Part shown: positions 1-57,906 of the stretch, piece by piece
How the letters are laid out: the number at the start of each line of letters is the position of its first letter
Position numbering within the stretch: position 1 is the stretch's first letter
From: Salvia splendens
Lineage: Eukaryota; Streptophyta; Magnoliopsida; Lamiales; Lamiaceae
Assembly: GCF_004379255.2 (NCBI RefSeq)
Contig: NC_056052.1
Location: 12,556,589 to 12,620,588 of the forward strand
DNA length: 64,000 nt
Direction of reading: 5' to 3'
Notes under the pieces: model-generated
What the model was told of the DNA's origin: nothing
What the model saw: the letters and a program-made list of their open reading frames with translations, nothing else
The model's database searches: none
Position numbers and translations under genes: made by a program

Positions 1-404
1 CTCTCCTTGTAGCTCATGTAGGGTGTCAGGACAACCTCTTCTTGATGGATCACATGCTTGGGATCAAACACATACTTGCTCAACTGCGACACGTGGAACA
101 CTTTGTGCACATTCCCGAAACTAGGAGGTAACGCCAGACGATACGTCACAGGACCTACTTCATCAATAATCTCGTACGACCCTACAAAACGTGGTTTCAA
201 TTTGTCCTTTACTCCAAACCTAACAACTCTTCTCGTCGGGGATACTTCCAAGAAGACTTTGTCACCAACATCGAATTTGATCTCCGTTCGGCGCACGTCA
301 GCGTACGACTTCTGCCTATCTTGAGCTTCTTTGATCCTCGCACGGATTTGATGTACAATTTTGGTCATCTCCTTGATAGCGTTGTTGTTAGTATTCGTTG
401 TCAT
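1..404 (-). pseudogene. Chromovirus pol remnant: integrase C-terminal region
   Basis: This minus-strand frame opens at an ATG at 404 and is still open at the left edge. It encodes the linker and C-terminal domain of a Ty3/gypsy integrase of the Del/Tekay type. Landmarks are RQKSYADVRR, then GDKVFLEVSP, then LKPRFVGSYEI, RLALPPS and VFHVSQLSKYV. In that family a chromodomain follows, and it would lie beyond the edge. Integrase inserts element cDNA into host DNA in the nucleus. The catalytic core and all upstream pol domains are absent here: about 190 non-coding bases separate this fragment from the gag-like gene at 596-1183, and the frames differ. I therefore read it as the 3' part of an internally deleted element. 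Family assignment is confident. The junction upstream of residue 10 is uncertain. Confidence 0.85.
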
Positions 405-595: not shown

Positions 596-1183
596 TTATC
601 TATCGTTATTTTCTTCCTCTTCGGGGTTCTCTTCTTCTTCCGGGTCCTCTTCTCCGTGATACTCGTCAAGCAAACGGAGGTCTTCGTCATCCTCCATGGC
701 ATCCCATGCATAATCGTCCTCGAAGCCCGGAACCATTCCTACTCGTGCTCCGGCTTCATCTCCTGCCACGGGTCCAACCTCGACCATGTGTTTGTCCTCC
801 CATACTATCTCGTCTTCCTCCTCTTTTGCCGACGGTGGTAGCTCAAAATGGGAATCAACTAGAGCGCACTTCACGGCCTTCAAGAAGCCGTTCATGTCAC
901 CGTCCATCTCGTTACTTCATTGTTCGTACCAAGTGAAACGTCTAGCCGTCGCTTCCATCCATTCCTTCCAACTCTCGGGCATTAACCCAACTAGCTTTCG
1001 TATGCCACCGTATTCTGTCTCATAGTACCCCTGGATCTCTTTCCATAGGGTTTCGAAACGGGCGACAAACTCTCCCAGAGCTTTACCTTCCTCTCTTTGG
1101 TAGCGGCGGTACTTGTTCCATGCTTGTCGCATTCTGACATTATATTGAGCGCTCTTGCGTGCGGTTTGTTTTGTTCGTACCAT
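596..1183 (-). pseudogene. gag-like gene with a histone H3-tail N-terminus and acidic tail
   Basis: The ATG at 1183 is immediately preceded in frame by TAG, so this is the true beginning of the frame. Residues 1-12 read MVRTKQTARKSA. Compared with mature H3 (A-R-T-K-Q-T-A-R-K-S-T), residues R2 to S10 are identical and in register, including K4 and K9. Residues about 30-80 (around LGEFVARFETL and IRKLVGLMPESWKEW) resemble the second half of a Ty3/gypsy capsid (gag) domain. One in-frame TGA at 917-919 interrupts the frame after residue 88. The same frame continues for 106 residues as an acidic segment ending in runs of Glu and Asp. The gene follows a Met primer site and a leader, the position of gag in a chromovirus. 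The usual first half of gag and the zinc knuckle are absent. A tail mimic that binds or is modified by chromatin enzymes is inference. Confidence 0.6.
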
Positions 1184-1793
1184 CTACGCGAAGACGAAAA
1201 TGTTCCTTAAAAGATGAAGATTTTCCAAAATATATGTTTTCTCGTTGTTTGTGATGGTTCTAAAGTTCGTCACGTATCACCAAGTTTGAGGCCGTCCTAA
1301 GGCTTCCTATGTTCACATGCTTACGTCGTAGTACTTTAACACATAACACATACTTAGGACATCATGCCAATCTTGCTCATGTCCCACATAATCATACCAT
1401 AACAATATCATATTCGCATATACAACACGTGCTTAGATCATCTTGCCAATCATGTTCATATTCCACATAATCACACAATCATATTCACACATATAACACG
1501 TGTTTAGATCATCATGCCAATCATGCTCGTGTTCCACATAATCATATCATCACAGTATCATTTTCACACATAACGTTTATTCACATGCGTACACTTGCCA
1601 AAACATCCTCATCATATCATCATCAATTTTTATACATCGATCTCACATTCTTTCAACAACTTAGAACATACCTCACTTTCTTTGGTTGAGCGTGATGCGT
1701 TGGATGTTGAGCCTTCGTGACACTTCTATTCAAACGTTCACTAATCTAGACTTAAGGTAAAAAAAGACTCTCAGACCAGAGCGAAAGAACGAA
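1184..1793 (-). other. 5' leader of the left-edge chromovirus
   Basis: This is the untranslated leader between primer site and gag-like gene, read on the minus strand. The first part and the segment near 1300-1330 closely match the leader of the other A element (16470-16830), which shows common descent. The 3' end, just before the ATG, is AT-rich and ends in GCGTAG. No open frame of note. Confidence 0.7.
1345..1575 (-). repeat. Degenerate tandem repeat in the leader
   Basis: Three imperfect units of about 70-80 bp, each containing on the plus strand a version of TTAGATCATCATGCCAATC (near 1353, 1433 and 1503) followed by a TTCCACATAATCA-like segment. The shorter leader at 16470-16830 has only one such unit, so the array expanded in this copy. 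Confidence 0.7.
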
Positions 1794-1805
1794 GCTCTGA
1801 TACCA
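1794..1805 (-). promoter_or_regulatory. Primer binding site, initiator Met tRNA
   Basis: On the minus strand this reads TGGTATCAGAGC, the standard plant primer site complementary to the 3' end of initiator tRNA-Met. It lies 3 bases inside the LTR end at 1809. It fixes the LTR boundary and the direction of the element. Confidence 0.9.
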
Positions 1806-1808
1806 CTT

Positions 1809-4563
1809 TGTCACGGTCGCCCTTACTAAGGATAGTGAAGACGGGGAAAACGTGACGAGGGAAAGGACTAAGGAGCGGGGAAGAAATGGGGGACACAATA
1901 AAAGTTGACACTTAATGCAAAAATTAGATTAACTTCCAAAAGGGAAAATACTTTAGTCTACAAAAATATTTTAGTTTATCAAAAGTAAGCGGCGGAATAA
2001 AGTCTCAAAGTATTTGACACAATAAAGTCATGCGAAGTAAAGTAAACTCTTGTGACATCAGTTTTCAAAAGTAGCAACGGAAATAAGTCACCAAAGAGAG
2101 TCATAGGATGACGCTTATGTATGAAGACACAACGCATCCAAATTTCCTAAGCGGACTCAACATCCATCGCAACACCCCGCTCCTGCACATAAAGAAAACA
2201 TATGCAGGGTTGAGTATTTGATATACTCAGTGAACACACGCCAAAATATTTGATAAAAGTTATGTCATCCATACCATAGTGAACTCGAGTTTTAACATTT
2301 TAGAAAAGAAGTATCATCGAGTATCACAAAAACATTTTCATAGCCTGGCCAGGCAAAACAATCTTCCCACTTTCTCAACAATCAAGCATTCACATCCTCT
2401 TACCATAGTGCGACGAAAGTGTGGCCACACTATTCGCTCACGAGACCGGCCAACTAGCAAGGACGGCTCACGATCCCCTCTGTGTACACAGCCTGATAGG
2501 GTTTGCGGCCCTACTCAGACCCGAATTCGTTTATCATAGCCCTATATCCTAATGGAGTGAACTCACAAACTAGGCATCAAGCACAATCTCAACATAGCCC
2601 TATAGCCTAACGGAGCAAGCTCAAACGAACTAGGCATCAGACAACAATCTTAACATCAAAACAATCACGGCATGGCATAACACTTTAAACCACCCTTGTA
2701 GCTCCACAATCATACTTTTGAAACGTAAAAGAGTTTAGTAAAGAAAGCCCACCTCGATAGCTTACAAACACGGTTCACAACTTTATTGAAATCCTTGCTC
2801 TTTGTACCCACGTAAGTACAACAACCCTTATCAACATCATAACCACATAATACAACATAATCAGTTTTCTATCAACAAATTACTCATACATGCCCTATCG
2901 TTCTTTCATCATTTTCTTAGATTGCCCATGCCCAAACGTTCATCAACAAAAACGAAACGAACACTCAAGCATAAATCAACGTGTAACACATAGCCACATC
3001 ATAGGATATGTTTCTTATTCACACATGTATCATTTATTCACTCAAAACATGACAACAAGTATTATTTTAACATGACAAAAATCTGGCAGAACTGTGCAGT
3101 CGTTTTGTAAAATTCATTAAAAATCCATCCCACCTCCGTTGGGGCTGAAATTTTATCAAAACACAGTAGACACATCAAATATCATCCAGTTAAAATTTAA
3201 CATCACAATCACATCTTTAGGTTGGTCAAATAACAAAACGAAACTCATTGGACGAGAATACAATTTCTGACAAAACTACGCAGTTTACTTTAAAAATTCA
3301 TTAAACATTCATCTTTCGTCAAAAGAGGCTGAGATTTATACACAATACAGAGGACATCTCAAATTTTACTCAGTTAAAAATTCGTGCCAAAATAAGATCG
3401 TTTGGTCAGTCAAACACATGTCGGAATCTACTGTCCGAACACCATGGTTTTTATGCTTCACAAATTCGAATTAGGGTCTATCTATCATTCATCCAAACAC
3501 ATATATTCATGCTTCCAACACATAATCATGCTTCAAAAAGATCTCACAACCAAGTTCTCATATATTCACATATCAATCACCAATGAATCATCCACAACCT
3601 CACACATACACATACATAAACGCATATCCACATACTTTCTCATGCAAAACATCAATCCCAACCGATTAATTTTTAGATCTATGATTTCTACACTCACTAT
3701 ATGCATGAGGGAATCAATAAACATGGGTTCAATGGAAAGGATGAGAAAGAGAATTCAAATATACCTTTCTTGTTAAAAAACAACCGGTAGGAAAGATAAT
3801 TGATGCGATTCTTCGATGAATCTTGAATTTCCAGCTCCAAATTGATGCAAGAACAAAGGATTGATGAAGAATTGGTGGAGAAGGAGAGGGGGAGAAAAAA
3901 TATCGTGTGGGATAGAGGAGAGGAAGAGAGCGGCGTGAATAATGGGGCTAGGGTTAGGGTTTGGCTTATTTATTCTCTAGGTTTAATTCCACACTTAAAT
4001 AAAATAATTAAATTGTTGGGGAATAAAATAAAATTCCACAATTAAAAATGAAAGTAGGCGTGTGGAATGGGAGAGATCAAGGGAAAAAAATACTTAAATC
4101 CTCAAATCAAATAGGAATACGATTTAAATTTGGTAAGACATGGTAAGATTTAATTGGATTTTAAATCAAGGAAGGAGACAAACAAGATACCAATTAAATC
4201 CACAAAATAATTCATTCTCCTAATTACTAGGAGATTTCAAAAATCTCAAGGGATGGCATAATTTGGTTTGGATTTAATTTGGATAAATATCTCAAAGCAA
4301 TTAATTAAATCCAAGAAAAAAAATATTATTTCCAATAAATAGGAGGGCCAAAAATTTCAAATAAAATGACTAGAATGATTATGCATGATCCCACTTAATT
4401 TAATTCACACATTGGAAGTTTAATTTCATTAACTCACATAACCCACAACAACTAATTTCACATAATTAATTCAAACACATAGAGACTCAATTTCCACAAA
4501 AGAAATTCTTATTCAACATCCACATTAATAGAAATAGAAGTCACAAAATTTCGGGGTGCTACA
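1809..4563 (-). mobile_element. Family A 5' LTR (minus strand), element continues off the left edge
   Basis: Read on the minus strand the LTR starts TGTAGCACCCCG at 4563 and ends GACCGTGACA at 1809, next to the primer site. At 2755 bp it is shorter than the other A copies (about 3-3.5 kb without nested insertions). It contains the block shared by all A LTRs, with the perfect palindrome AGTGTGGCCACACT at 2418-2431, and the CCTGCACATA...TATGCAGGG inverted repeat near 2185-2210. The matching 3' LTR must lie left of the window, so no target duplication can be checked. The short frames inside it are not conserved among copies and are not genes. Confidence 0.85.
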
Positions 4564-4853
4564 CTTGACGAGCTGACAGACTGACTAGATAGAAGAAGGA
4601 AGGGGGAGGAATCTGAGACTGTAGAATACTGGATTGACCTTAAGCTTGTGGGGACGACTGCTAGAACTTGAACCAGTTTATACATCTGTGTTTGCGTCTG
4701 TTGTGTATGTTTTTTTGGCATCTAGGTCTAGGAGTTTGTGTTTGTTTGTTTTCTTTAGAGTCGGTCCAAGTGATAACCATGCACGAAATTTGCCTTATTT
4801 CTTTATTTTGTCTTTCATACTTGAGGGCAAGTATGGTTTAAGTGTGAGCAGTT
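4564..4853 (+). mobile_element. 3' internal end of Athila-like element C1
   Basis: Non-coding tail just upstream of an LTR. It carries the signature CTTGAGGGCAAGTATGGTTT followed by AAGTGTGAGCAGTT, which also precedes the LTRs of families B and C2 in this window. The rest of this element is cut off by the A LTR at 1809-4563. Confidence 0.65.
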
Positions 4854-11921: not shown

Positions 11922-14573
11922 TGTAGTACCCCCGAAAATTGTGACTTTTTTATTTATTTATTTGATGGCTTATTTTATTTTAAATAATGTGGATGTTGAA
12001 TAAGAATTTCTTTTGTAGAAATTGAGTCTCTATGTGTTTGAGTTAATTATGTGAAAAATTAGTTGTTGTGAGTTAAGGTGATTAAGCTTTCAATGTGTGA
12101 ATTAAATTAAATGGGATAATGCATAATCATTCTAGCCATTTTAATTGAAATTTTCTGTCGTCCTATTTATTGGAAATAATACTTTCTTTCTTGGATTTAA
12201 TTAATTGTCTTGGGATATTTATCAAAATTAAATCCAAGCCAAATTATCCCTATGTTATTCTACATGATTTTCGACCCCTTGGCCATCCCTTGAAATTTTC
12301 GACTTCTCCTAGTAATTAGGAGAAGGAATTATTTTGTGGATTTAATTGGTATCTTGTTTGTCTCCTTCCTTGAATTAAAATCCAATTAAATCTTATCATA
12401 TCTTGCCAAATCTCTCCATATCCTATTTTAATTAGGATTTGACTCTTTCCTTCTTTGAGACCTCATTATTTTCGCCCCTTATACCTATTAATTACTTTGT
12501 GGGATTAATTTATTTGTTACCTATTTTGTGGGAGTCTTTTCCTACAAGAAATTACCAAATTTAAATCCTATTCCTATTTGATTTGAGGATTTAAGTATTT
12601 TCCTTGATTTCTCCCATTATACACGCCCCTTTTTATTTCCCCTCTTGGAGATGCTTGAATTATTTTGTTACCTTCTTTATGAGATACAGAATATCTTTTT
12701 ACCTATTTTGTGAATATCATTCTCTCCAAGTAAATACCAAATAAATATCTATGCTAATTAAATAGCAAGTTTTGAAAATTACTCCCCCACATACTACACG
12801 CCTATTTTCCTTTTAATGGTGGGATTTTTATTCATTGACCTCTATTTTATTCTTCAACAATTTTAATTGCTTTATTTAATTGTGGGATTTATCCTAGACT
12901 ATAAATTAAAAGAACCCTACCCTAGCCTTCATATTTTCGCCTCCCTCTTCTCTCCATACCACACGTCTCTCTTCCTTTCCTTCGTCACCAATCCTTCACC
13001 AATTCCTTGTTCTTGCATCACTGTGGAGTTGGAAATTCAAGATTCATCGAAGAATCGCATCATTCGTCATTCCTACCGATTGTTTTCAAGAGAAAGGTAT
13101 ACTTTGACTCATCTTTCTCCTTCTTACCATTGAATCCATGTTTCTGGATCCCCTCATGCATATAGTGAGTGTAGAAATCGTAGATCAAAAAATTAATCGG
13201 TTGGGAAGGATGTTTGCATGAATATGTATGTGTGTGTGTGAGTTTGTGGGTGATTCATTGGTGAATGCTATGTGTAAATAGGGGAACATGGTTGTGATGT
13301 CGTTTTTGAAGCGTGAATATGTGTTGAAAGCATGAATATGTATGTGTGGATGAATGATAGACAAACCCTAGTTTGTAAATGTTGAGCATTGAAACTGTGG
13401 TGTCCGAACAGTATGTTTCGACGAGTGTTTGGCTAACCAAACGATCTTATTTTGGCACGAATTTTTAACTAGATGAAATTTAAGTGTCTTCCATGTTGTG
13501 TCAAAATTTCAGTCTCTTTTGACGAAAGATGAATATTTAACGAATTTTTCAATTGAATTGCGCAGTCGTGTCAGAATTTGTATTCTCGTCCAGTGAGTTC
13601 GTTTTTTTGTTTTAACCGACCTAAAGATGTGATTTTGGTGTGGATTTTAAACTAAGTAAACCTTTATGTGTCTACTCTGTGGTGACCTAATTTTAGGGTC
13701 ATATGAGGTCGGATGGAATTTTAATGGTGTTTACAAAACGACTGCGCTGTTCTGCCAGAATCATGTCTTGATTGAAATAGTCTTGTTTGAATGAAATACA
13801 TGATACATATGTGAGTAAGAACTTATCCTATGATGTGATTATGTGTTACACGTTGATGTATGCCAAAGGGTTTCATTTCGTGTATGATGGTGAACGTTGG
13901 GATGGGCAATATAAGAAAACGGTGAGAGGAACGATAGGGCAGGCATGAATAATGTATTGATAGAAAACTGATTGTGTTGTATTATGTGGTTATGATGTTG
14001 ATAAGGGTTGTTGTGCGTACGTGGGTACGAAGAGCAAGGATTTCAATAAAGTTGTGAACCGTGTTTGTAAGCAATCGAGGTGGGCTTTCTTTTACTAAAC
14101 TCTTTTACACTTTCAAAAGTATGATACGGTGTTATAAGGGTGGTTTAAAGTGTTATGTCATGCCATGATTGTTTTGATGTTGAGATTGTTGCCTGATGCC
14201 TAGTTCGTTTGAGCTTGCTCCGTTAGGCTATAGGGCTATGTTGAGATTGTTGCCTGATGCCTAGTTCGTCTGAGTTTACTCCGTTAGGCTATAGGGCAAT
14301 GTGTGAAACGAATTCGGGTCTGACTAGGGCCGCAAACCCTATCAGGCTGTGTACACAGAGGGGATCGTGAGCCGTCCTTGCTAGTCGGCCGGTCTCGTGG
14401 GTGAATAGTGTATCCACACTTTCGTCACACTATGGTAAGAGAAGGTGATTGATTGATTGATTGATGAGAAAGTGGGGAGATTGTTTTGACTGGCCAGTCT
14501 ACGAAAATGTTTTGTGATACTCGATGATATTTTTTTCTAAAATGTTAAAACTCGAGTTCATTATGGTATGAAT

Positions 14574-16035
14574 TGTTAGGGTTTTGTATACTAGAAATTA
14601 CCTTTTGAGTGATTGCATATTGTAAAACTCTAATGGTTATTTTCCAATAAATGCAAAAGATTATTTTTGTCATAATGTTGTTATGTTTTACATTTAATGG
14701 TTGTTTATTGCATATTTAAATGTATAAGCAAACGTAACAAAGTCTAAGTCTTTGTTTTAGTAGACCGGTTGTGGGCTTCGTCCAATTTAAGGTAACACGG
14801 TCAGTTCTAAACAAAGAAAAATAAGAATTTCACAACCTAGATAGGGCTAGACTACCTATCGCGAAAGGTTGCAATGTCAGTCCGATTATTTCTAAGCCTT
14901 ATTGAAATAAGATGACGATGGTGTGGTATAGCACTGAATGGATCTAACAGCAAGACGAGTCTTTATGCTATCTACTGAAAGACGAGGTCTTGATAATTAA
15001 TTTCTTAATCAATGTACGTTATCATTGAGCACACGACATTGAGTATCCACTACTTTGACTTACCAAAGGTGTGGGTATTTCGTAACCTAACAATCCAGGT
15101 ATATTGGGTAGTGGTGATCATTATCTAGCGGTGCTAGGATTGCTATTATGTTAAAACGTGCGCGAGGAGAGTCTCGTTTGATAACATCCACAAGAGGAGC
15201 TCGAAACGAGGTTTTATTATTCGGAACCTAGCTAGTTGGAGTTTGATTACTCTATGAGAAATAAATAAGAGTTTCTTGCTAAGTCCACTCTTGGAATTCG
15301 AAATATGTTAATTAATTAAGTCTATAGCAGACATTAATTAATTAATGGATGTTTCTATCTTAAGCGCGAGAAATAAATCAAATGCAATTAAAGGAAACCC
15401 GGAACACTTGTAATTTCGGATTTGGAAGGCAGTGCAATATTACTTCTGTAGTGGCTGCTCGTAATATTCCAATATAAGCTTATATTAAATTGTGGGTTCA
15501 ATTTAATTAGTAAAAAGCTAATTAGGTGAGGCCTGTTCCAAATTCTTCCTTAGATCCCTGACTGGGCCCAATATGTGACATATATAAATAGGAGAATAAA
15601 GGAGACAGAAGATACACTTTTTAATATACAAAATTTTTGTCCCCCTCTAGAAAGAGCGAGCTCGAAATTTGTGCTCCCTCCGTGAGCAGTTTCTGTCTTC
15701 CATTATTCGAGTCCTAGTACGTTGGTGATATTTGCCCACACAAATATCAGCGTATAGTTCGGGACACCAGTCAGAAGATCCGAGGTCTTGTATTGAAGAT
15801 CTTCACGTGGAGACGGAGCAAGCCATCATCGATTCTTGATTGAATCTACGAGGTAAATTGGCTAATGTAGTAAGCATGCTTTAGGGATTTTATGTGCTAA
15901 AGAATGTTTTTAATTCAAGTTATGAGCATGATACATGTGATAATTACGCGAATAGAATTTGTCTAAATAATCTGCTAAATAGATCAAGTTTATATGATCG
16001 GTAAATAACGCGCGCTTCCGCTGCCAACCCCTTCA
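14574..16035 (+). mobile_element. Solo LTR F1, nested in an A LTR
   Basis: Starts TGTTAGGGTTTTG and matches F2 (17515-19061) over its length. It has a TATA box at 15583-15591. Its last about ten bases (AAACCCAACA in F2) are missing, and about 16 bp of host LTR present in the intact copy (21110-21130) are gone. No target duplication is visible, so the 3' junction was remodelled after insertion. Termini suggest an LTR retrotransposon, perhaps copia, but no coding part is present to decide. Confidence 0.75.
15583..15591 (+). promoter_or_regulatory. TATA box of F1 LTR
   Basis: TATAAATAG following GGGCCCAATATGTGACATA. The equivalent box in F2 is at 18578-18586, in a conserved CTGACTGGGCCCAATATG context. 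Confidence 0.6.
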
Positions 16036-16457
16036 AATATTTTGGCGTGTGTACACTGAGTATGCCAAGTACTCAGCTTTGCATATGTTTTCTTTATGTG
16101 CAGGTTGAGCGGTGATGTTGCGGCGGATGTTGAGTCGAGCCTTATGAAGTTCCGGATGCGTCGTGTCTTCATACATAGGCGTCTCCCTATGACTCTCTAG
16201 ATACCTTTATTCTGCTACCTTGTTTCGAATCGTTCTTGATAAATTCATTCATTTTGCTCTACACTACTTTATGACATTAATTACCTTGAGATATTAACCC
16301 GTTGCTTAATTGTTTAACCGATTAAAACTTTTCTTTTGAAGTTTTGTTTAAGATGTTGTCTTTCATTGTTTCCCCTTCTTCTTCCCCGCTCCTTAGTCCC
16401 TTCCCTAGTCACGATTCCCCGTCTTTACTATCCTTAGTAAGGGCGGTCGTGACAGAG

Positions 16458-16469
16458 TGGTATCAGAGC
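16458..16469 (+). promoter_or_regulatory. Primer binding site, initiator Met tRNA
   Basis: TGGTATCAGAGC, 3 bases after the 5' LTR. It is identical to the site at 1794-1805 on the other strand. Confidence 0.92.
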
Positions 16470-16894
16470 TTCGTTCTTTCGCTCTGGTCCGAGAGCCTTC
16501 TTTCAGATTAAGTTTAGATTAGTACCCCTAGACTAAAAGTGTCACGAAGGCTCAACATCCGAAGCATTACGCTCAACAACAAGAAAGTGAGGTATGTTTT
16601 AGGTTATTGAAAGTATATGGAATTGATGATGATATGATAAGGGTGTATTGGCAAGAGTGTGCATGTGTATGGAAGTTATGTGTGAATATGCTAATATGAT
16701 GATACTATTATGTTGGAACATGAGCGTGAGTGACATGATGTTGCAAATGTGTGCTTTGTGTGAGAAAGTGTGAAAGTACTACGACATAAGCATGGGAACA
16801 TAGGAAGCCACGTGGGAGTTAGAAGATAGGATGAAAGAAAAGTACCTCGAGTAATTTTTGTAAGACGACCAAATTTCGGGACGAAATTTCTGTT

Positions 16895-16907
16895 AAGAGG
16901 GGAAGGA
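16895..16907 (+). promoter_or_regulatory. Polypurine tract
   Basis: An unbroken purine run AAGAGGGGAAGGA directly before the 3' LTR. It is the expected plus-strand DNA primer and fixes the 3' LTR start at 16908, where TG has mutated to TT. Confidence 0.85.
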
Positions 16908-19900
16908 TTTAGCACCCCGTAAAATTGTGATTTTTTTTATTTGATGGCTTATTTTATTTTAAATAATGTGGATGTTGAATGAGAATTTCTTTTGTGGAAA
17001 TTGAGTCTCTATGTGTTTGAGTTAATTATGTGAAGTTAGTAGTTGTGAGTTATGTGAGTTAATGTGATTAAGCTTCCAATGTGTGAATTAAATTAAATGG
17101 GATAATGCATAATCATTCTAGCCATTTTATTTGAAATTCTCAGCCCTCCTATTTATTGGAAATAATACTTTCTTTCTTGGATTTAATTAATTTCCTTGGG
17201 ATATTTATCCAAATTAAATCCAAACCAAATTATCCCTATGTTATTCTACATGATTTTCGACCCTTTGGCCATCCCTTGAAATTTTCGACTTCTCCCAGTA
17301 ATTAGGAGAATGAATTATTTTGTGGATTTAATTGGTATCTAGTTTGTCTCCTTCCTTGATTTAAAATCCAATTAAATCTTATCATATCTTGCCAAATCTC
17401 TCCATATCCTATTTTAATTAGGATTTGACTCTTTCCTTCTTTGAGACCTCATTATTTTCGCCCCTTATGCCTATTAATTACTTTGTCGGATTAATTTATT
17501 TGTTACCTATTTTGTGTTAGGTTTAGTATACTGAAAAGCATGTTTCGAGCGAGTTCGCACGAATAGAATCTTGCTTGTGTACGAAAAAACTCTACAATTC
17601 ACTTTTGACCCGATTCAGTATCATTCGAGCAGTTTGCACGAATAGAATCAATATATTATTACATAATGTTTGCTTGTGCGTTTATAAGTTGTTTTATAAA
17701 CATTTAAATGCATAAGAAGTAAACAAAGCCTAAGTCTTTTGCTTAGTAGACTGGTTGTGGGCGTCGTCCACTTTAAGGTAACTACAGTCGGTTCTATGCA
17801 ATGCTTTGCAAAAGAAAAAGAAGAATTTCACAACCTAGATAGGCTTTGGCTACCTATCGTGAAAGGTTGCAATGTCAGTCCGATTATTTCTAAGCCTTAT
17901 TGAAATAAGATGACGTTGGTGTGGTATAGCACTGAATGGATCTAACAACAAGACGAGTCTTTATGCTATCTACTGAAAGACGAGGTCTTGATAATTAATT
18001 TCTTAATCTACATACGTTAGCATTGAGCATAGGACATTGAGTATCTACTACTTTGACTTACCAAACGTGCGGGTTTTTCGTCACCCAACGATCCAGGTAT
18101 ATTGGGTAGTGGTGATCATTATCTAGTGGTGTTAGGATTGCTATTATGTTGAATCGTGCACGAGGTGAGTCTCGTTTGATAATGTCCTCAAGAGGAGCTT
18201 GAACAAGGTTTTATTATTCGGAAACTAGCCAGTTGGAGTTTTATTACACTAGGAATAATAAATAAGTGTTTCTTGCTAAGTCTACTATTGGAATTAATAA
18301 GATGTTAATTAATTAAGTCCATAGCAGAATTTAATTAATTAATGGACATTTCTATCTTAAGCGCGGGAAATAAATAATAAACAAAGTGGAAACCCGAATT
18401 ACTTGTAATTTTGGATTTGGATGGGGAGTTCAATATTACGTGTGTAGTGACTGCTCGTAATATTCCAATATAAGCTTGTATTAAATTGTGGGTTCAATTT
18501 AATTAGTAAAAAGATAATTGGGGAAGCCCATATCCAAAGCCTTCCATAGATCCCTGACTGGGCCCAATATGAACTATTATAAATAGGAGAATAAATGAGA
18601 CAAAAATTAATTAATTTTCAGTATGAAAATTTCGTCCACTTCTATTATTATGAAGATGACGATTTTTTCAAGAATTTCTCCTCCGTGAGTTCTTCAGCTC
18701 CTTCTCCGTGAGAAAGTTCTGTCTTCTTTATTCGAGTCCTATTGTTTCGATAAGATCAGCCCACCCTGATGTCGGAATACAGTTCGGGACACCAGTCAGA
18801 AGATCTGTGGTCTAGTATTGAAGATCATCGTGGAGAAGGCGCAAGCAATCGACGATTCTTTGGAGAATCAAATCGGTAACTCTAAACCGTAGAATTCATG
18901 TTTAGGATTTATATTCTATGAGCATGAATTATTTGCGTTCTAGCATGCAATTTTGTGTTAACATGTGATTTGATTAATCCCATAATCTGTCAAATAGATC
19001 ATACGTCTGATTTATTTGTTTGTACAAGTCTTCCGCTGTGCAAGGGGCTTCAAACCCAACATTTTGTGACAGTCTTTTCCTACAATAAATTACCAAATTT
19101 AAATCCTATTCCTATTTGATTTGAGGATTTAAGTATTTTTCCTAGATTTCTCCCATTATACACGCCCCTTTTTATTTCCCCACTTGGAGATGCTTGAATT
19201 ATTTTGTTACCTTCTTTATGAGATACTCAACATCTTTTTACCTATTTTGTGAGTATCTTTCTCTCCAAGTAAATACCAAATAAATATCTATGCTAATTAA
19301 ATAGCAATTTTTGAAAATTACTCCCAGACATACTACACGCCTATTATCCTTTTAATTGTGGGATTTATTCATTGACCTCTATTTTATTCTTCCACAATTT
19401 TAATTGCTTTATTTAATTGTGGGATTGATCCTAGACTACATATTAAAAGAACCCTAACCCTAGCCCTCATATTTTCGCCTCCCTCTTCTCTCCATACCAC
19501 ACGTCTCTCTCTTCCTCTCCTTCTCCACCAATCCTTCACCAATTCCTTGTTCTTGCATCATTGTGGAGTTGGAAATTCAAGATTCATCGAAGAATCGCAT
19601 CATTCGTCATTCCTATCAATTATTTTTCAAGAGAAAGGTATACTTTGACTCATCTTTCTCCTTCTTACCATTGAATCCATGTTTCTTGATCCCCTCATGC
19701 ATATAGTGAGTGTAGAAATCGTAGATCAAAAAATTAATCGGTTGGGAAGGATGTTTGCATGAATATGTATGTGTGTGTGAGTTTGTGGGTGATTCATTGG
19801 TGAATGCTATGTGTAAATAGGGGAACATGGTTGTGATGTCGTTTTGGAAGCGTGAATATGTGTTGGAAGCATGAATATGTATGTGTGGATTAATGATAGT

Positions 19901-21544
19901 TTGTAAATGTTGAGCATGAAAACTGTGGTGTCCGGACAGTAGGTCCGACGAGTGTTTGGTCGACCAAACGATCTTATTTTGGCACGACTTTTTAACTGAG
20001 TGAAATTTTAAGTGTGTTTTGTGTTGTGTCAAAATTTCAATCTCTTTTGATGAAAGATGAATTTTTAACGAATTGTTTAATTGAACTACGCAGTCCTGTC
20101 AGAATTTGTATTCTCGTCCAGTGAGTTTGTTTTTTTGTTTTAACCGACCTAAAGATGTGATTTTGGTGTTGATTTTTAACTGAGTAAACCTTTATGTATC
20201 TACTGTGTGGTGACCAAATTTTAGGGTCATATGAGGTCGGATGGAATTTTAATGATTTTTACAAAACGACTGCGTTGTTCTGCCAGATTCATGTCTTGAT
20301 TGAAATAGTCTTGTTGGCAAGTTTAGAATGAAATACATGATACATGTGTGAGTAAGAACTTATCCTATGATGTGATTATGTGTTGCACGTTGATGTATGC
20401 CAAAGGGTTTCGTTTCGTGTATGATGGTGAACGTTGGGATGGGAAATATAAGAACACGGTGAGAGGAACGATAGAGCATGCATAAGTAATGTGTTGATAG
20501 AAAACTGATTGTGTTGTATTATGTGGTTATGATGTTGATAATGGTTGTTGTGCGTACGTGGGTACGAAGAGCAAGGATTTCAATAAAGTTGTGAACCGTG
20601 TTTGTAAGCAATCGAGGTGGACTTTCTTTTACTAAACTCTTTTACGCTTTCAAAAGTATGACACGATGTTATAAGGGTGGTTTAAAGTGTTATGTCATGT
20701 CATGATTGTTTTGATGTTGAGATTGTTGCCTGTTGCCTAGTTTGTTTGACTTGCTCCGTTAGGCTATAGGGCAATGTTGAGATTGTTGCCTGATGCCTAG
20801 TTCGTCTGAGTTTACTTCGTTAGGCTATAGGGCTATGTGTGAAGCGAATTCAGGTCTGAGTAGGGCCGCAAACCCTAGCAGGCTGTGTACACAGAGGGGA
20901 TCGTGAGCCGTCCTTACTAGTCGGCCGGTCTCGTGGGCGAATAGTGTGGCCACACTTTCGTCGCACTATGGTAAGAGGATGTGATTGATTGATTGATTGA
21001 TGAGAAGGAGGGGAGATTGTTTTGACTGGCCAGTCTACGAAAATGTTTTGTGATACTCGATGATATTCTTTTCTAAAATGTTAAAACTCGAGTTCACTAT
21101 GGTATGGATGACATAACTTTTATCAAATATTTTGGCGTGTGTCCACTGAGTATGTCAAGTACTCAGCCCTGCATATGTTTTCTTTATGTGCAGGTTGAGC
21201 GGTGATGTTGCGGCGGATGTTGAGTCGAGCCTTAAGAAATTCCGGATGCGTCGTGGCTTCATACATAGGCGTCTCCCTATGACTCTCTAGATACCTTTAT
21301 TCCGCTGCCTTGTTTTGAATCGTTCTTGATAAAGTCTTTCGTTTTGCTCTACACTACTTTATGACATTAATTACCTTGAGATATTAACCCGTTGCTTAAT
21401 TGTATAACCGATTAAAACTTTTCTTTTGAAGCTTTGTTTAAGATGTTGTCTTTCATTGTTTCCCCTTCTTCTTCCCCGCTCCTTAGTCCCTTCCCTAGTC
21501 ACGATTTCCCGTCTTTACTATCCTTAGTAAGGGCGGTCGTGACA
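16908..21544 (+). mobile_element. 3' LTR of the deleted A element
   Basis: Starts TTTAGCACCCCG (TG mutated) and ends GGCGGTCGTGACA. About 3.09 kb without the nested F2 LTR. The palindrome AGTGTGGCCACACT is intact at 20943-20956, whereas in the 5' LTR it is mutated. Confidence 0.88.
17515..19061 (+). mobile_element. Solo LTR F2, nested in an A LTR
   Basis: Starts TGTTAGGTTTAG and ends CTTCAAACCCAACA, giving short inverted ends. Flanked by TTTTG on both sides (17510-17514 and 19062-19066). 1547 bp, with no coding region. TATA box at 18578-18586. A segment of nearly identical sequence occurs in F1, showing two independent insertions of one family in the two LTRs of one element. Confidence 0.92.
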
Positions 21545-21590
21545 GAGTTACCCGTTCTTCTTCGCTCGAAATCTTCCCAGTGTTGCCCCC
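21545..21590 (-). pseudogene. env-like gene remnant (B-related), upstream piece
   Basis: Minus-strand continuation of the gene at 11628-11921 across the A insertion. TCTTCTTCGCTCGAAATCTT corresponds to TCTTCTTCACTCAAGATCTC at 47036-47055 in the B element. It ends where the C3 LTR begins. Confidence 0.5.
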
Positions 21591-48941: not shown

Positions 48942-50446
48942 TGAAAGAGCAGGTTTGCGTCAGGTGTGGTTTCAAGCAGGGGTGTATCCAACTGATCAGT
49001 ATGGAAGTCCCAGCTAATCCTGAATCCTGGTATCAATAATTCCTCAACCCTCTTCTACTGGGTAGTATAGTGAAGGTAAGGGTCGAATCCCACAGGGATG
49101 GAGACGATTTGGAGTGATTGTGGTGATATTCTGGAAGGTTTGGTTAGCTACCACGCTTGGGTTGAGTTTCTACCTAGACGGAAAATTAAAGTGGTACTCT
49201 ACTGACTAGGAGGAGGGAGAGTTGTTAAACAGACGGTTGCGTACGTGTGAGTGGGGAACATGATGTTTCAGAAATAAATGTAGAAGGTACAAGTTCACTA
49301 TAAAAGACTAAACGGAATATCAAAGGGAAAGAGGTAGTTAGGTGGCTAGACCTGCAAATCTGAAAAGTAACAGCTAAAAAGTAAGGACAAAAGTAAAAAG
49401 TTGTTAAAAAGCAAAAGTGGTCCCAAACTTGGATGGAGATGTTGTCTTCTTCAACATAAATCAAATCAGATCGGCAAAACCAGATTCATCACCATAAAAA
49501 CACAGATTAACAACTTCAAGAACACAGATCTACGATTAAAACTTCAAATCAAAAGATCGAACACTGAAACTGCAACTAAGCTTACTGGTCAACATGTAGG
49601 GTGGCAGAAATCACGTAAACTGGGTTTTCACACTTAACTAATTCAGATCTAAAATCTTACAGCTATCTAGACTTGCAAACTCAGAGATATTAACTACAGA
49701 AGTTAAAACATGCGAATCCACACTGGAAATTACCGTAACAGCTAGATCTAAGCTATCTAGGCAGAAATAAGTGAAAGAAAACATGAACCGATGCTGGAAA
49801 ACAACTTCATATTAAATAAAACGTTTGGATCACAACTAAGATTTCAAAGTAAGCAAAATACTGGAAATGCGAAAGATCCAACGTAGAGAAAACAAACAAG
49901 ATTAACTAGAAAGTAAATAAAGATTGTTTTTGCCACTCCGGGCGATGGAACTACTAACTACGATCGTGCTGACTGGAAAGAGAGAATGGAACTCCGGCAA
50001 ACTGATGATCTTCAAGTGACCATGGCTGTGGCGAGGAACGAGAATTACGAAGGATAATGCTGAAGGAGGGATCTACCGAAGACAAATTGCTAACTAAGCG
50101 TAGGAGTTAACTAACTAATTGATCCCATTTTCTCTCTCCAAGTGGCTTCCTTTTATAGGGAGGCCCCCCTTGATTTTTAGGGTAGACTTCGAATATGAAA
50201 TGACTCTTTTGCCCCCTTGGTTGCGGCTGATCTTCCCAGCTATCCTTCTTCTCCATCTCGAGCCTTTTTGGCATGCATACTGGTCAGGATAACATCATCC
50301 TGACGCCCTTTCCACCTGAAGTATCCGAAGCTTTGCCTACTGGCTAGAACACTCAACCTGCACACTTAAGCAACTATTTTTGCAGATATAATCCAATTAT
50401 GCATATCATACTGACCAGTAACCAAGGCCTAGAATACGACTTATCA
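48942..50446 (-). mobile_element. 5' LTR of the minus-strand B element
   Basis: 1505 bp, same ends as its partner. TATA box at 50149-50157 (minus). Just inside, the minus strand reads AATGGCGTATATATTG, where an Asp-tRNA primer site would be expected. Only its first bases survive. Confidence 0.9.
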
Positions 50447-52104
50447 CATTTCCTCACCCTATTTAAATTAGGATTTGAATTATTTCCTTGTGGAAATACT
50501 CCCCAAATTTTCGGCCCCTCCTTTATTTTAAAGGAATTAATATTTGTTTCCTATTTTGTGGAATCCATTCTATCCATATAAATATCGAAAAAATTCCTAT
50601 GCCTAATTCATTGGGGATTTGAATATTTTCCTTTTATTTTCCCCATATTTAAATTTCCTTGTTACCTTATTTATGAGATACTCACTATCTTTTTACCTAT
50701 TTTGTGAGTATATTTCTCTCCAAGTAAATACCAAATCAATTTCTATGCTACTTAATAGCATAATTTTCGAAATTCCTTTTCCTCAAATACACGCCTACTT
50801 TAGTTTAATTGTGAAATTTATTCTTTGACCTCTGTATTTTTCTTCAACAAATTTTAATTATTTTTATTAAGTGTGGGATTAATCCTAGAATATGAAAAGG
50901 GAGAACCCCTAACCATAACCCCCATTCAAACATTTTTCCTCCCTCTCTCTCTCCTCCCACACGCCTCCCTATCCCTCTCCACCAATCCTTCACAAACTCT
51001 TCGATCTTGCTTCCTTTTGGAGTTGGAAACTCAAGATTCGTTGGAGAATCGAGCCATTCGTTGTGTCTACCGATTGTTTTCAAGAGAAAGATATACTTGA
51101 TTCACCCTTCTCGTCTTTTTACCATTGAATCCATCATTCTCGAGCCTTCATGCATATAGTTGAGTGGAGAAATCGTAAATCTAAGGATTAATTGGTTGGG
51201 AAGGATGGTTGCACAGGAAAGTTTATATGTGTGCGTGTATGTTGTGTGTGTGCAAGTGGGTGGTTAAATATTTGGTGAATGTTATGTGTGATTATGAAAG
51301 CATGATTGTAATCTTGTTTTTGAAGCGTGAAAATGTGTTGGAAGCATGGATATGTACGTGAGAATGTATGATAGACGAACTAGGGTTTGTGAATGTTAAG
51401 CATGAATTCTGTGGTGTTCGGACAGTAGGTTCCGACAAGTTTTTGACTGATCAAACATTCTTATTTTGACACGATATTTTAACTGGATAACGTTTCAGAT
51501 GTCATTTGTGTTGTGTCAAAATTTCAGCTTCATTTGATGACGGACGAATTTATAATGAATTTTTCAATCGAACTGCGCAGTACTGCTAGAATTGTGTGTT
51601 CCATCTATTGAGTTTCGTTTTTGTTTTGACCGATCAAAAGACATGATTTTGGTGTGAAATTTTAACTGAGTAAACCTTTATGTGTCTACTGTGTGGTGAC
51701 CAAAGTTTGGGGTCATATGAGGTCGGATGGAATTTTAAAGAGTTTTACAAAAAGACTGCGCTGTTCTGCCAGATTCTGGTTTTGTTGAAATAAGCTTTGT
51801 TGACAAGTTTTGAGTGAATTACATGATACATGTGTGAATAAGGAACGTATCCTATGATGTGGCTATGTGTTGCACGTTGTTGTATGCTAGAGTGTTCGTT
51901 TCGTTTATGTTGGTGAACGTTTGGGATGGGCAATAAAAGAAAAATGATGAAAGGAACGATAGGGCATGCATGATAAATGTATTGATGGAAAAACTGATTG
52001 TGTTATGGTGTTGACAAGGGTTGTTGTGCGTACGTGGGTACGAAGAGGAAGGGTTGCATTAAAGTTGTGAATTGTGTGTATAAGCAAGCGAGGTGGGCTT
52101 TCTT

Positions 52105-52830
52105 TTACTAAACTCTTTTACGTTTCAAAATTATGATATTGGAGTTATAAGGGTGGTTTAAAGTGTTATGTCATGCCATGATTGTTTTGATGTTGAGATT
52201 ATTGTCTGACGCCTAGTTCGTTTGAGCTTGCTCCGTTAGGCTATATGGTTATGTGTGAAACGAATTCGGGTCTGAGTAGGGCCGCAAACTCTATCAGGCT
52301 GTGTACACTGGTTGGATCGGGGGCCGTCCTTGCTAGTCGGCCGGTCTCGTGGGCAAATAGTGTGGCCACACTTTCGTCGCACTATGGAAAGATGATGTGA
52401 TTGTTGGATTGTTGAGAAAGTGGGGAGATTGTTTGCCTGGCCAGGCTATGAAATGTTTTTATGTTCTCGATGATATTTCTTTAACTAAACTCTTTTATTT
52501 TTCCAAAGTATGATTGTGGAGCTATAAGGGTGGTTTAAAGTGTTATGTGAGATTGTGTGCTTGATCCCTAGTTCGTATGAGTTTACTCCGTTAGGCTATA
52601 TTGCTATGTGTGAAACGAATTCGGGTCTGAGTAGGGCCGCTATCAGGTTATGTACACTGGTGGGATCGGAAGCCGTTCTTGCTAGTTGATCCGTCTCGTG
52701 GGCGAATAGTGTGGCCACACTTTCGTCGCACTATGGAAAGATGAAGTGATTGTTGGATTGTTGAGACAGTGGGGGAGATTGTTTGTCTGGCCAGACTATG
52801 AAACAGTTTTTGTGATACTCGACGATATTT
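52105..52830 (+). repeat. Tandem duplication inside the A LTR
   Basis: Two diverged copies (from TTTACTAAACTCTTTTACG near 52106 and TTAACTAAACTCTTTTAT near 52480) each contain the GAATTCGGGTCTGAGTAGGG, CTCGTGGGC and TGTGGCCACACTTTCG motifs. Other A LTRs have a single copy. Confidence 0.8.
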
Positions 52831-53290
52831 CTTATTTAAATGTAAAACTCGAGTTCACTGTGGTATGGATGGCATAACTTTTATCAACTATTTTGGCATG
52901 TGTCCACTGAGTATACCAAGTACTCAGCCCAGCATATGTTTTCCCTATGTGTAGGTTGAGCGGGATCTTGAGGCGGATGTTGAGTCGAGCTTTAGGAAAT
53001 TTCCGGATGCGTCGTGTCTTTATACATGGGCGTCATCCCATGACTCTCCTTTGATACTTGTTTTCCGCTGCCTTGTTCGAAACTATTTTCTAATGGTATT
53101 CCGCACTACTCTTTACATTTATTCCATTAAGTACTTTGAGACTTTCATTCGTCACTTAACCATGTTTTTGTAGACTAAAATACTTTCTTTTGAAGTTAAA
53201 TGAGTTTTCATATTAAATGTTGGTCTTTATCGTTTCCCCATAGTCATGAGTTCCCCGTCTTTACTATCCTTAGTAAGGGCGGTCGTGACA

Positions 53291-54401
53291 AAGAGAGTGT
53301 GTCTGCTGTAATCCAGAGGAAGAGACTTCTTTCCAAGAGGACTGATCCCGGGATGTTCACGCTACCCATCATCATCGGAGATGTTAAAATTGAGCATGCC
53401 ATGCATGATCTGCGAGCTTCTATTAATGTGCTGCCTTTCTCAGTGTACAAGAGATTGACTGGAGTCAGATTAGTAGATAGAAAGGTGGTCATTCAGCTCG
53501 CAGATAGGCCATGCATCAGTCTAGAAGGAGTATTGGAGAATGTGATAGTAAGGGTGCATGATATCCTCTACCCTGGAAATTTTCATGTGATTTGGATTAA
53601 TGAGTCTGAAACCGTTAAGTCAGTGGAGTATTATTGGGGAGGCCATTCTTGCGGACTGCAAAAACTATAATTGATGTAAGCGATGGTACAATTTGCTTGG
53701 ACTATCATGGGGAGAAATTCACTTATAATATTGATGAAGCTACGAAGTAACCATTGGATACTGAAAATCTGCATTCTTTGGATGTAATTTACCCATTAGT
53801 CCAAGAATTTCTCGAGACTAAACTTTTAAAGGAGCAACTTGCAGCTGCGGAACTGAGCGACTCAATTGAAGTGGAAGTCACAGAGTGGTGCGAAACACTG
53901 ATGACACAGAACTTGACTGATGAAGAGATAAATAATGCAATAATGGGGTTTTGTCAGAAGCCAGGTTTGACTGGATCAAGTGACCTTGCCCAACTGAGCA
54001 GTCTGGAGAAATCACCTGACTTTGGAGAACTTACAGCAAAGAACATGGAGAAGAACCCACTACCCCAAGAAGCGATCTCACCTAAGAAGGAGTTGAAGAC
54101 ACTGCCCCCAGATTTGAAATACACCTACCTAGGAGATGAAGAGACATTTCCAGTAATTATCAACAGCCGGTTGACTTAGAAACAAGAAGAGAAATTACTG
54201 GAAGTATTGAGAAGAAATCAAAAGGGTATAGGGTGGACTTTGTCGGACTAAGTGGGCATAAGTCCTGATCTTTGCATACACCGTGAGCAACAGAGGAAGT
54301 TGAATCCTAATATGAGAGAGGAAGTTCTGAAGGAGGTTCTTAAGCTGTTAGCTTTGGGAATCATCTACTCCATCCCAGATAGCAAGCGGGTCAGTCCAGT
54401 A
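53291..54401 (+). pseudogene. Protease and start of reverse transcriptase, large C element
   Basis: Continues gag after the solo LTR. 53291-53620 is the Athila-type aspartic protease: VIQRKRLLSKRTDPGMFTLP, then HDLRASINVLPFSVYKRL, then RKVVIQLADRPCISLEG. The catalytic triad position reads DLRA where Asp-(Leu/Ser/Thr)-Gly-Ala is expected, so the key Gly is replaced. A frame change near 53625 moves to a frame with TIIDVSDGTICLDYHGEK, then the protease-RT linker (53754-54179, ending FPVIINSRLT and a stop). After that comes KLNPNMREEVLKEVLKLLALG and DSKRVSPV, the entry of the reverse transcriptase. A hAT-like element cuts it at 54402. Confidence 0.82.
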
Positions 54402-56105: not shown

Positions 56106-56973
56106 TCTATCCCTGGTATCATTTTATCATTTGAAACTATCATTTTATCCCCTGAAACTATCATTTTATAATTTAAAAAAATAATTCATCATGGAATAAG
56201 GTATGAATTGATGATACAAAACCAAGTATGAAGTAAATTCAAAGTAAATTCATCATGCTGTCATATGTAACTCTAAATCTAAACTAAAAAACTATAGAAT
56301 CTAAAAAAATGAGAATCTCTGACAAAATGATAAAATCGAGCAAAAACAAAAGTGAAATAAGTAATAAACTTCATCCAGCCTTCCTTCGATGATGCTTGAG
56401 CGTTTTCCTTCGACATATTCCAGAATTTGGATGATTTTTCCTTCGAAACTAAAGAAGCAAGGGTTTGAAATGCGATTCGGAGGGTTTGAGTGTGAGAGAA
56501 ATTGAATGCAGTGTTTAATTCACGTTTTCTTCTTACCCGCCCAATTTTATAACGAAATGACAATTTTGCCCTTAATATATCTGAAATATGATAGTTTTAT
56601 TTGATAAAATGATAGTTTTGTTAGATTAAATCCAAACCACATATTTTTAAAATGTGTGGTGCAGATTTAGTTATAGGGTTATCACACAAATTTGAGTTAT
56701 CATTATAATGCACCCCTATATATATATTTATATTCTATTAGTATATATAAAATAAAATATTATATATATATATATATTAATATATAGTCCATATATTTTT
56801 CGGTTTTTCAGATTTGTTTTGAAAAATTTAGTTTTTTCGGTTTTGTTCGGTTTTTGAAGTTCGGTTTTCAATTTTTCGGTTTTTCAGGTTCGGTTTGGTT
56901 TTGAACTAAATTCGGTTTTTTGACTTTGGTTAGGTTTGGGCCAAAAATGGAACTGAAACCCGAATGTCCAGTG

Positions 56974-57906
56974 CACATGTTGCCCAAAAAGTCTGGAATA
57001 CAAGTAGTGATGAATGACAAGAATGAGTTAGTGCCCTCGAGGTTGGTCACAGGTTGGGGAATGTGCATTGATTATCGGAAATTGAACGAAGCTACTCGGA
57101 AGGATCATTTTCCATTACCTTTTATTGACCAGATGCTTGAGAGACTAGCAGGGAAGCAGTACTTTTGCTTCATAGATGGCTACAGTGGTTACTTCCAGAT
57201 ATATGTTGATCCGGAAGATCAGGAGAAGACAACTTTCACCTGCCCCTTTGGAACATATGCTTACAGAAGAATGTTGTTTCGCTTGTGCAATGCACTAGGA
57301 ACTTTTCAAAGGTGTATGATGACTATTTTCTCTGATTTGTTGGAACAATGCATCGAAATTTTCATGGATGACTTCACTGTCTATGGAAATTCTTTCGAAT
57401 CTTGCCTTGGTAATCTGGACTTAGTATTGCAGAGATATCAGGAGATGAATCTAGTATTAAATTTTGAGAAATGCCACTTATTGGTCCCCGAAGGGATTGT
57501 CTTGGGCCATGTCGTATCAGAAAAGAGTATACAAGTCGACAAGGCTAAAGTAGAGGTAATTAACAAGCTGCCATTTCCCACTAATAAAAAAGAAATACGA
57601 GCGTTTCTGGGATATGCTGGGTTTTATAGGAGGTTTATTAGAGACTTTGCAAAGATAGCTCTGCCGTTAACCCATCTCCTCAAGAATGATGTGGAGTTCG
57701 TCTTTGCTGAAGCATGCCAGAAAGCTTTCCAACTTCTGAAAGATCGACTTGTTTCAGCCCCAATTATCAGAGCCCCTGATTGGAATCACCCCTTTGAGGT
57801 GATGTGTGATGCCAGTGAATTCGCAGTGGGAGCAATTTTGGGTCAGAGAATTGATGGGAAGAGTTACGTCATTTTTTATGCTTCAAAGACTTTGAACCAC
57901 CCCTAA
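56974..57906 (+). pseudogene. Reverse transcriptase of the large C element
   Basis: Resumes after the hAT-like insertion with MLPKKSGIQVVMNDKNELVP, then GMCIDYRKLNEATRKDHFPLP, FIDGYSGYFQI, TFTCPFGTYAYRRMLFRLCN and the catalytic box as FMDDFTVYG. Then FLGYAGFYRRFIRDF and the start of RNase H (FEVMCDASEFAVGAILGQ). This stretch stays open to the stop at 57904-57906. The FMDD form is common in Athila-type elements. RLCNALGTFQ departs from the usual GLCNAPATFQ. It copies element RNA into DNA in the family and is separated from its start by the insertion. Confidence 0.9.

Follow-up and report, generated by a model that had tools for sequence, protein, structure and literature searches.

An open reading frame (ORF) on the minus strand of a 64 000 nt stretch of the Salvia splendens genome (the window) begins with a near copy of the histone H3 tail. 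This raises the question of which gene the frame represents, and whether its start was captured from a histone gene, imitates H3 or resembles it by chance. The frame, termed ORF1, starts with MVRTKQTARKSA at window position 1183, with a TAG immediately 5′ of the ATG. Its first codons (window 1183-1148, minus strand: ATG GTA CGA ACA AAA CAA ACC GCA CGC AAG AGC GCT) reproduce R2 to S10 of H3 in register, as an earlier note on this sequence had stated and as would be expected of a histone mimic. Among the 1274 ATG-started, stop-free 10-mers on both window strands, the ORF1 start scored 9/10 against ARTKQTARKS while three runners-up scored 4. A DNA pattern for M[AV]RTKQTARK gave 49 matches genome-wide and its reversed control none. 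These matches were split by codon signature into 25 of element type and 24 others, presumed to be H3 genes; three of the 24 were opened and all started as H3, one for only ~24 residues. The window ORF1 is interrupted by an in-frame TGA at codon 89, so an open ORF1 frame is found in other copies only.

The window element is an internal-deletion derivative of what is probably a Tekay-type chromovirus with ORF1 as an extra 5′ ORF. Its features, by window coordinates, are as follows.

1..404, minus strand: ORF2, cut off by the window boundary; SH3-type domain of the integrase C-terminus followed by a chromodomain-like stretch; a pol remnant
377..384, minus strand: internal-deletion junction, the ends of which share a short sequence; the deletion took gag and most of pol
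596..1183, minus strand: ORF1, 195 codons plus stop (596-598), the extra 5′ ORF upstream of gag; coordinates counted
917-919, minus strand: in-frame TGA at ORF1 codon 89, in the window copy
1148..1183, minus strand: ORF1 codons 1-12, the H3-tail-like N-terminus; read from sequence and kept in the family
1184..1186, minus strand: TAG adjoining the ATG, either an in-frame stop or potentially a 3′ splice site, preceded by a pyrimidine-rich stretch; TAG in 80/90 and TAA in 2/90 family copies
1794..1805, minus strand: primer binding site TGGTATCAGAGC, read from sequence
1809..4563, minus strand: 5′ LTR, ~2.75 kb; BLAST match 1811-4563, last two bases by eye
4564..4568, minus strand: target site duplication TCAAG, 5 bp, by eye; its counterpart adjoins the far end of the 3′ LTR

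The element thus runs from the 5′ LTR through the primer binding site, presumably of tRNA-Met type, to ORF1 and the short ORF2, and its 3′ LTR lies beyond the window start (C21:12553653-12556394; 94.7 % identity to the 5′ LTR by BLAST). ORF2 matched Pfam SH3_Tf2-1 (1e-23); no Pfam Chromo match was obtained for it at E 0.01 or better, the chromodomain-like stretch having been recognised by eye. The same ORF1-then-ORF2 arrangement was present in 6 of 90 family copies read (L003-L006, L008 and L009), and the shortened element therefore seems to have multiplied. L008 and L009 are almost the same, however, and could be a single copy that entered the assembly twice.

Further retroelement sequences were observed in and around the window. 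An LTR of the same family at ~50300-53293 looks like a solo LTR and adjoins a different gypsy element, in which an RT-like frame was seen by eye at 56905-57903; among frames of at least 60 aa no ORF1 follows this LTR. BLAST matches at ~11973-21548 suggest a further internally deleted copy, in which two related plus-orientation LTRs are separated by little sequence. Immediately beyond the window (L001 682-4810), long open frames of a copia-type retrotransposon were recognised by eye.

ORF1 had been described in the earlier note as gag-like, an identity that was not upheld. A separate frame begins 822-858 nt downstream of the ORF1 start in all 10 relatives examined, opening with MPPRR or MPSRR in nine and with IPPRH in one. 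Capsid-type sequence follows further along this frame in nine of the ten, in some of them in pieces, and L042 has the beginning only. In one relative, Pfam returned Ty3_capsid and Retrotrans_gag (E 1.2e-4 and 1.2e-3, below Pfam's own cut-offs) and, in the pol of the same relative, RVT_1. A Ty3-type gag (below cut-off) and RVT_1 from this relative, with SH3_Tf2-1 from the window copy, provide the domains expected of such an element. ORF1 itself gave no Pfam gag match, and an hhalign comparison with five gag sequences of the same elements gave a probability of 0.1 (percent). Pfam and NCBIfam searches with ORF1 yielded no convincing family, with matches at chance level only (best E 0.066). A weak profile match to GH48 cellulases (E 0.0014 with alignment A5) fell to 0.47 with alignment A2, was absent with single sequences and was dropped. 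ORF1 lies on the sense strand between the primer binding site, as read in the window copy, and gag, which is downstream in 10/10 relatives. It is likely to be a 5′ aORF (accessory gene) of Tekay-type Salvia chromoviruses; the Tekay label is a provisional one, drawn from layout and gag.

To place these features in the wider family, the 88-residue segment that precedes the TGA was used as a query against the genome, giving 1507 candidates, of which 150 were scored and all 150 matched. Ninety copies were read: the top 30, plus 60 selected among the remaining 120. As the list had been ordered by similarity to the window, the counts hold for copies close to it. A protein search with the 88-residue piece gave no match, one protein was found with the full ORF and ten with an alignment. 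Residue counts among the 90 copies were 82 for M1 (absent from eight), 79 for V2 and 8 for A2, 84 for R3, 78 for T4, 89 for K5, 57 for Q6 and 24 for R6 (with a stop at this position in six), 87 for T7, 83 for A8, 48 for L9 and 35 for R9, 88 for K10, 80 for S11 and 8 for G11. The lysine equivalent to H3K4 is hence retained in 89/90 copies and that equivalent to K9 in 88/90, which bears out the presence of the H3 match across the family. Matches to H3 residues 1-10 numbered ten in one copy, nine in 20, eight in 30, seven in 32 and fewer in seven. The copy with all ten, L005, begins MARTKQTARKSA.

The frame was open for at least 180 residues in 41 of the 90 copies. Pooled pN/pS, calculated for 40 of these after one with a shifted frame was left out, was 0.34 for codons 2-13, 0.40 for codons 14-60 and 0.31 for codons 61-115. 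This indicates that ORF1 behaves as a working gene: it is multi-copy, often open and under purifying selection. The first residues, singled out in the earlier note for comparison with the rest, are indeed kept, but under the constraint that applies to the rest and not more; the stronger constraint on the motif than on its neighbours that mimicry would predict was not found. At ~185-210 residues, the protein combines a short basic arm at its N-terminus with a conserved middle domain and a strongly acidic tail (mean net charge in the 41 open copies, +4.6 for residues 1-30 and −27.6 after residue 115). A protein of this composition probably acts inside the nucleus, with chromatin or nucleic acid as its target.

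Whether the H3-like stretch is N-terminal depends on the start codon. The earlier note took the TAG before the ATG as evidence of a true N-terminus. The stop does favour this reading; alone it does not establish initiation there, as ...TTTTCGTCTTCGCGTAG|ATGG might instead serve as a 3′ splice site, in which case an upstream exon would be joined and the H3 match could be internal. The pyrimidine fraction is 0.63 right before the TAG versus 0.42-0.45 further up, each of the 41 open copies has between 20 and 46 ATGs (mean 33) within 600 nt upstream, and the TAG is retained in a sister family. A stop directly before the ATG is nevertheless the simpler account, and even with splicing the ATG could stay first in frame. 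Splicing into an internal H3-like stretch appears quite improbable.

The sister family allows the origin of the arm to be considered. This second S. splendens family gave 1662 candidates, of which 150 were scored and all matched; 140 of the 150 were stop-free over the matched part and protein identity exceeded 95 % for many, so the family looks young. Its members (L093-L096 and the genome matches) carry a 5′ accessory ORF of mostly 173-187 residues. Of four copies read, three start with MARMFRTPRRSD and the fourth with MARMFRTPLRSD; TAG precedes the ATG in all four, and the family has gag downstream. The two families align without gaps from the start codon, over the same 28 residues up to a shared tyrosine. 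At the arm the sister family reads MARMFRTPRRS (peptide ARMFRTPRRSD) and outgroup P0002 begins MARRIRTPRRS; the sister arms match H3 at 5/10 positions and have neither lysine. The earlier note had named related copies with an intact gag but without the motif as evidence against it, and this was borne out in part as regards the motif, by this sister family and by the L at H3 R8 in 31/41 open copies.

A phylogenetic tree was reconstructed with the arm left out, from 88 of the 90 copies and four proteins, and rooted on P0002-P0004. It has few columns and many open forks. Near its base are L083 (MARIKQTARKGAQ), the position of which is unsure because of its long branch, and a S. divinorum protein, followed by a few TARKGVQ copies. 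Two supported clades consist mostly of TARKSAQ (34 rows, including the window copy) and TALKS (47 rows) sequences. The S. divinorum protein (AAHA92_06362) is closest to the TARKGVQ copies of the S. splendens genome; its annotated start is inside the ORF, at a point beyond the arm, which the annotated protein hence does not cover. Eighteen further copies were fetched, and MARTKRTALKSS was the start of four of the ten that were readable at the N-terminus. The arm of L083 reads MARIKQTARKG. The H3 likeness of the arm seems to have been built up step by step within a single lineage, with the older state reconstructed from few outgroups, L083 (decayed), P0002 (a 1030-base contig) and four sister-family copies.

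The ungapped alignment with the sister family favours point substitution over capture of an H3 gene, and the H3-like arm would then have been made from a sister-type arm, MAR..RTPRRS. One DNA comparison could be taken to mean that the arm is instead a captured piece of an H3 gene: in codons 1-11, open copies with R8 (10 in number) share a mean of 75 % identity with the best of three host H3 loci versus 54 % with the sister family. High DNA identity in the arm would be given by the amino acid match alone, and it falls to 34 % after codon 11. Copies with L8 reach 0.65 with the best H3 locus over codons 1-11. Against the sister family, the two groups have identities of 0.54-0.59 in codons 1-11 and 0.38-0.39 in the following 17. 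Codon sharing with H3-type matches is no better than random: the best of 24 shares 5/8 codons, a value reached in 43 % of draws of random synonymous codons. This agrees with the earlier suggestion that recent capture is unlikely. The old capture also entertained there is disfavoured by the sister family, which has the same length in ungapped alignment with ORF1. Histone homology beyond the arm was sought and rejected, as the profile alignment of ORF1 with H3 is confined to residues 1-16 or 1-14, and no histone was among the PDB matches when a histone fold was looked for by sequence. Capture, whether recent or old, is in our judgement highly improbable.

Mimicry and coincidence are then two readings of a single ORF1 anatomy. 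As the arm came to resemble H3 residues 1-10, host writers and readers of the H3 tail may touch it, and it could act as a decoy or tether for them. A true histone mimic would have been selected for binding or methylation by such proteins (e.g. SUVH, PHD and chromodomain proteins), a reading we regard as unlikely, and the consequence it implies, evasion of silencing or tethering of the element to chromatin, as equally so. It would account for a run of nine H3 residues, all in register, at the start of the protein, for retention of both lysines in nearly all copies and for the arms of L083 and L005. The probability of passing from a sister arm to RTKQTARKS is 3.5e-10 to 6.6e-9 under PAM250, PAM70 and BLOSUM62, a rough figure in that the matrices stand for arbitrary, unfitted distances and the background frequencies were assumed values. 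Some H3K4 readers need A1, and the V at position 2 in 79/90 copies may not suit them; H3 Q5 is R in 24/90, and L replaces H3 R8 (TALKS, the larger clade) in 48/90. The division of open copies at this last position, 10 R versus 31 L, argues against a strong present need for the H3 residue, the sampling not being random. The ordinary constraint on the arm and the absence of both lysines from the sister family also weigh against selection for mimicry. In its favour, the H3K9 enzyme KYP is a target of plant geminiviruses (available text of PMC4606454).

The alternative is that drift brought a basic arm, with a role in nuclear entry or in binding nucleic acid, to the H3 sequence, where a very wide scan came upon it. 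We consider this moderately probable. The sister arms are basic, share M-A-R...T-x-R-R-S and already match half of the ten H3 positions, and the arm is under no special constraint. Some variable positions resemble C-to-T or G-to-A changes (GCA/GTA, CGA/CAA); as CGA to CAA and GCA to GTA resemble cytosine deamination, part of the H3 match could be decay. The very low probability per lineage and the 9/9 contiguous residues speak against chance, although screening so large a number of sequences for whichever well-known motif might occur regains several orders of magnitude of that improbability. We lean towards the H3 likeness being a lucky variant of a basic arm rather than a selected decoy or tether. 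Working mimicry by the arm is, on its sequence, doubtful; the fuller proposal, that a point-substituted chromovirus arm with an acidic tail attached is a working imitation of the H3 tail in its K4 and K9 contexts and engages the host H3K9/H3K4 machinery, is slightly more doubtful still. If the mimic works, it would be a transposon-encoded plant H3 imitation made by convergence, and would offer a direct test of how elements handle H3K9-based silencing.

Among known systems, host histone H3 is identical to ORF1 at residues 2-10 (1-10 in L005) and nothing else aligns. ARK(S/T) histone mimics occur in other proteins. ORF1 shares their ARKS context and differs in its presumed N-terminal position, in having the K4 context too and in a function that is putative. 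In the literature, no transposon-encoded H3 imitation of this kind was present among the best-ranked matches, as judged from titles and the starts of abstracts. The connection drawn in the earlier note to an integrase class with H3K9me-reading chromodomains is weak, as seed-plant chromovirus chromodomains have no aromatic cage and no known partner (available text of PMC6317226 and PMC3350952), although one co-localises with an HP1-like protein (PMC3350952).

Accessory ORFs of unknown function are described for many lineages of plant Ty3/gypsy elements in the available text of a survey (Neumann 2019, PMC6317226), in which ORF1 finds a general parallel. The survey cut-off for extra ORFs was at least 250 codons, and an ORF of ~200 codons such as ORF1 would therefore have been missed. 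Even without mimicry, two Salvia chromovirus families are seen to carry an accessory gene under selection that a survey with this cut-off would pass over. The closest comparison is with the Tekay 5′ aORFs of sunflower (Tekay 13-2), with counterparts in maize (Tekay), sorghum (Sb7) and rice (Retrosat-2), as described in the available text of PMC11728184. An H3-like tail is not named for these aORFs in the available passages of that paper, and the word 'histone' occurs 0 times in its main text. The sunflower protein, set beside ORF1 by description, differs in being ~400 aa long and proline-rich and in having an NLS. Like ORF1, the Tekay aORF is an extra ORF 5′ of gag, without a known domain, and it is conserved among hundreds of copies. 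The extra 5′ ORF in Tekay chromoviruses is thus of a kind already described (PMC11728184).
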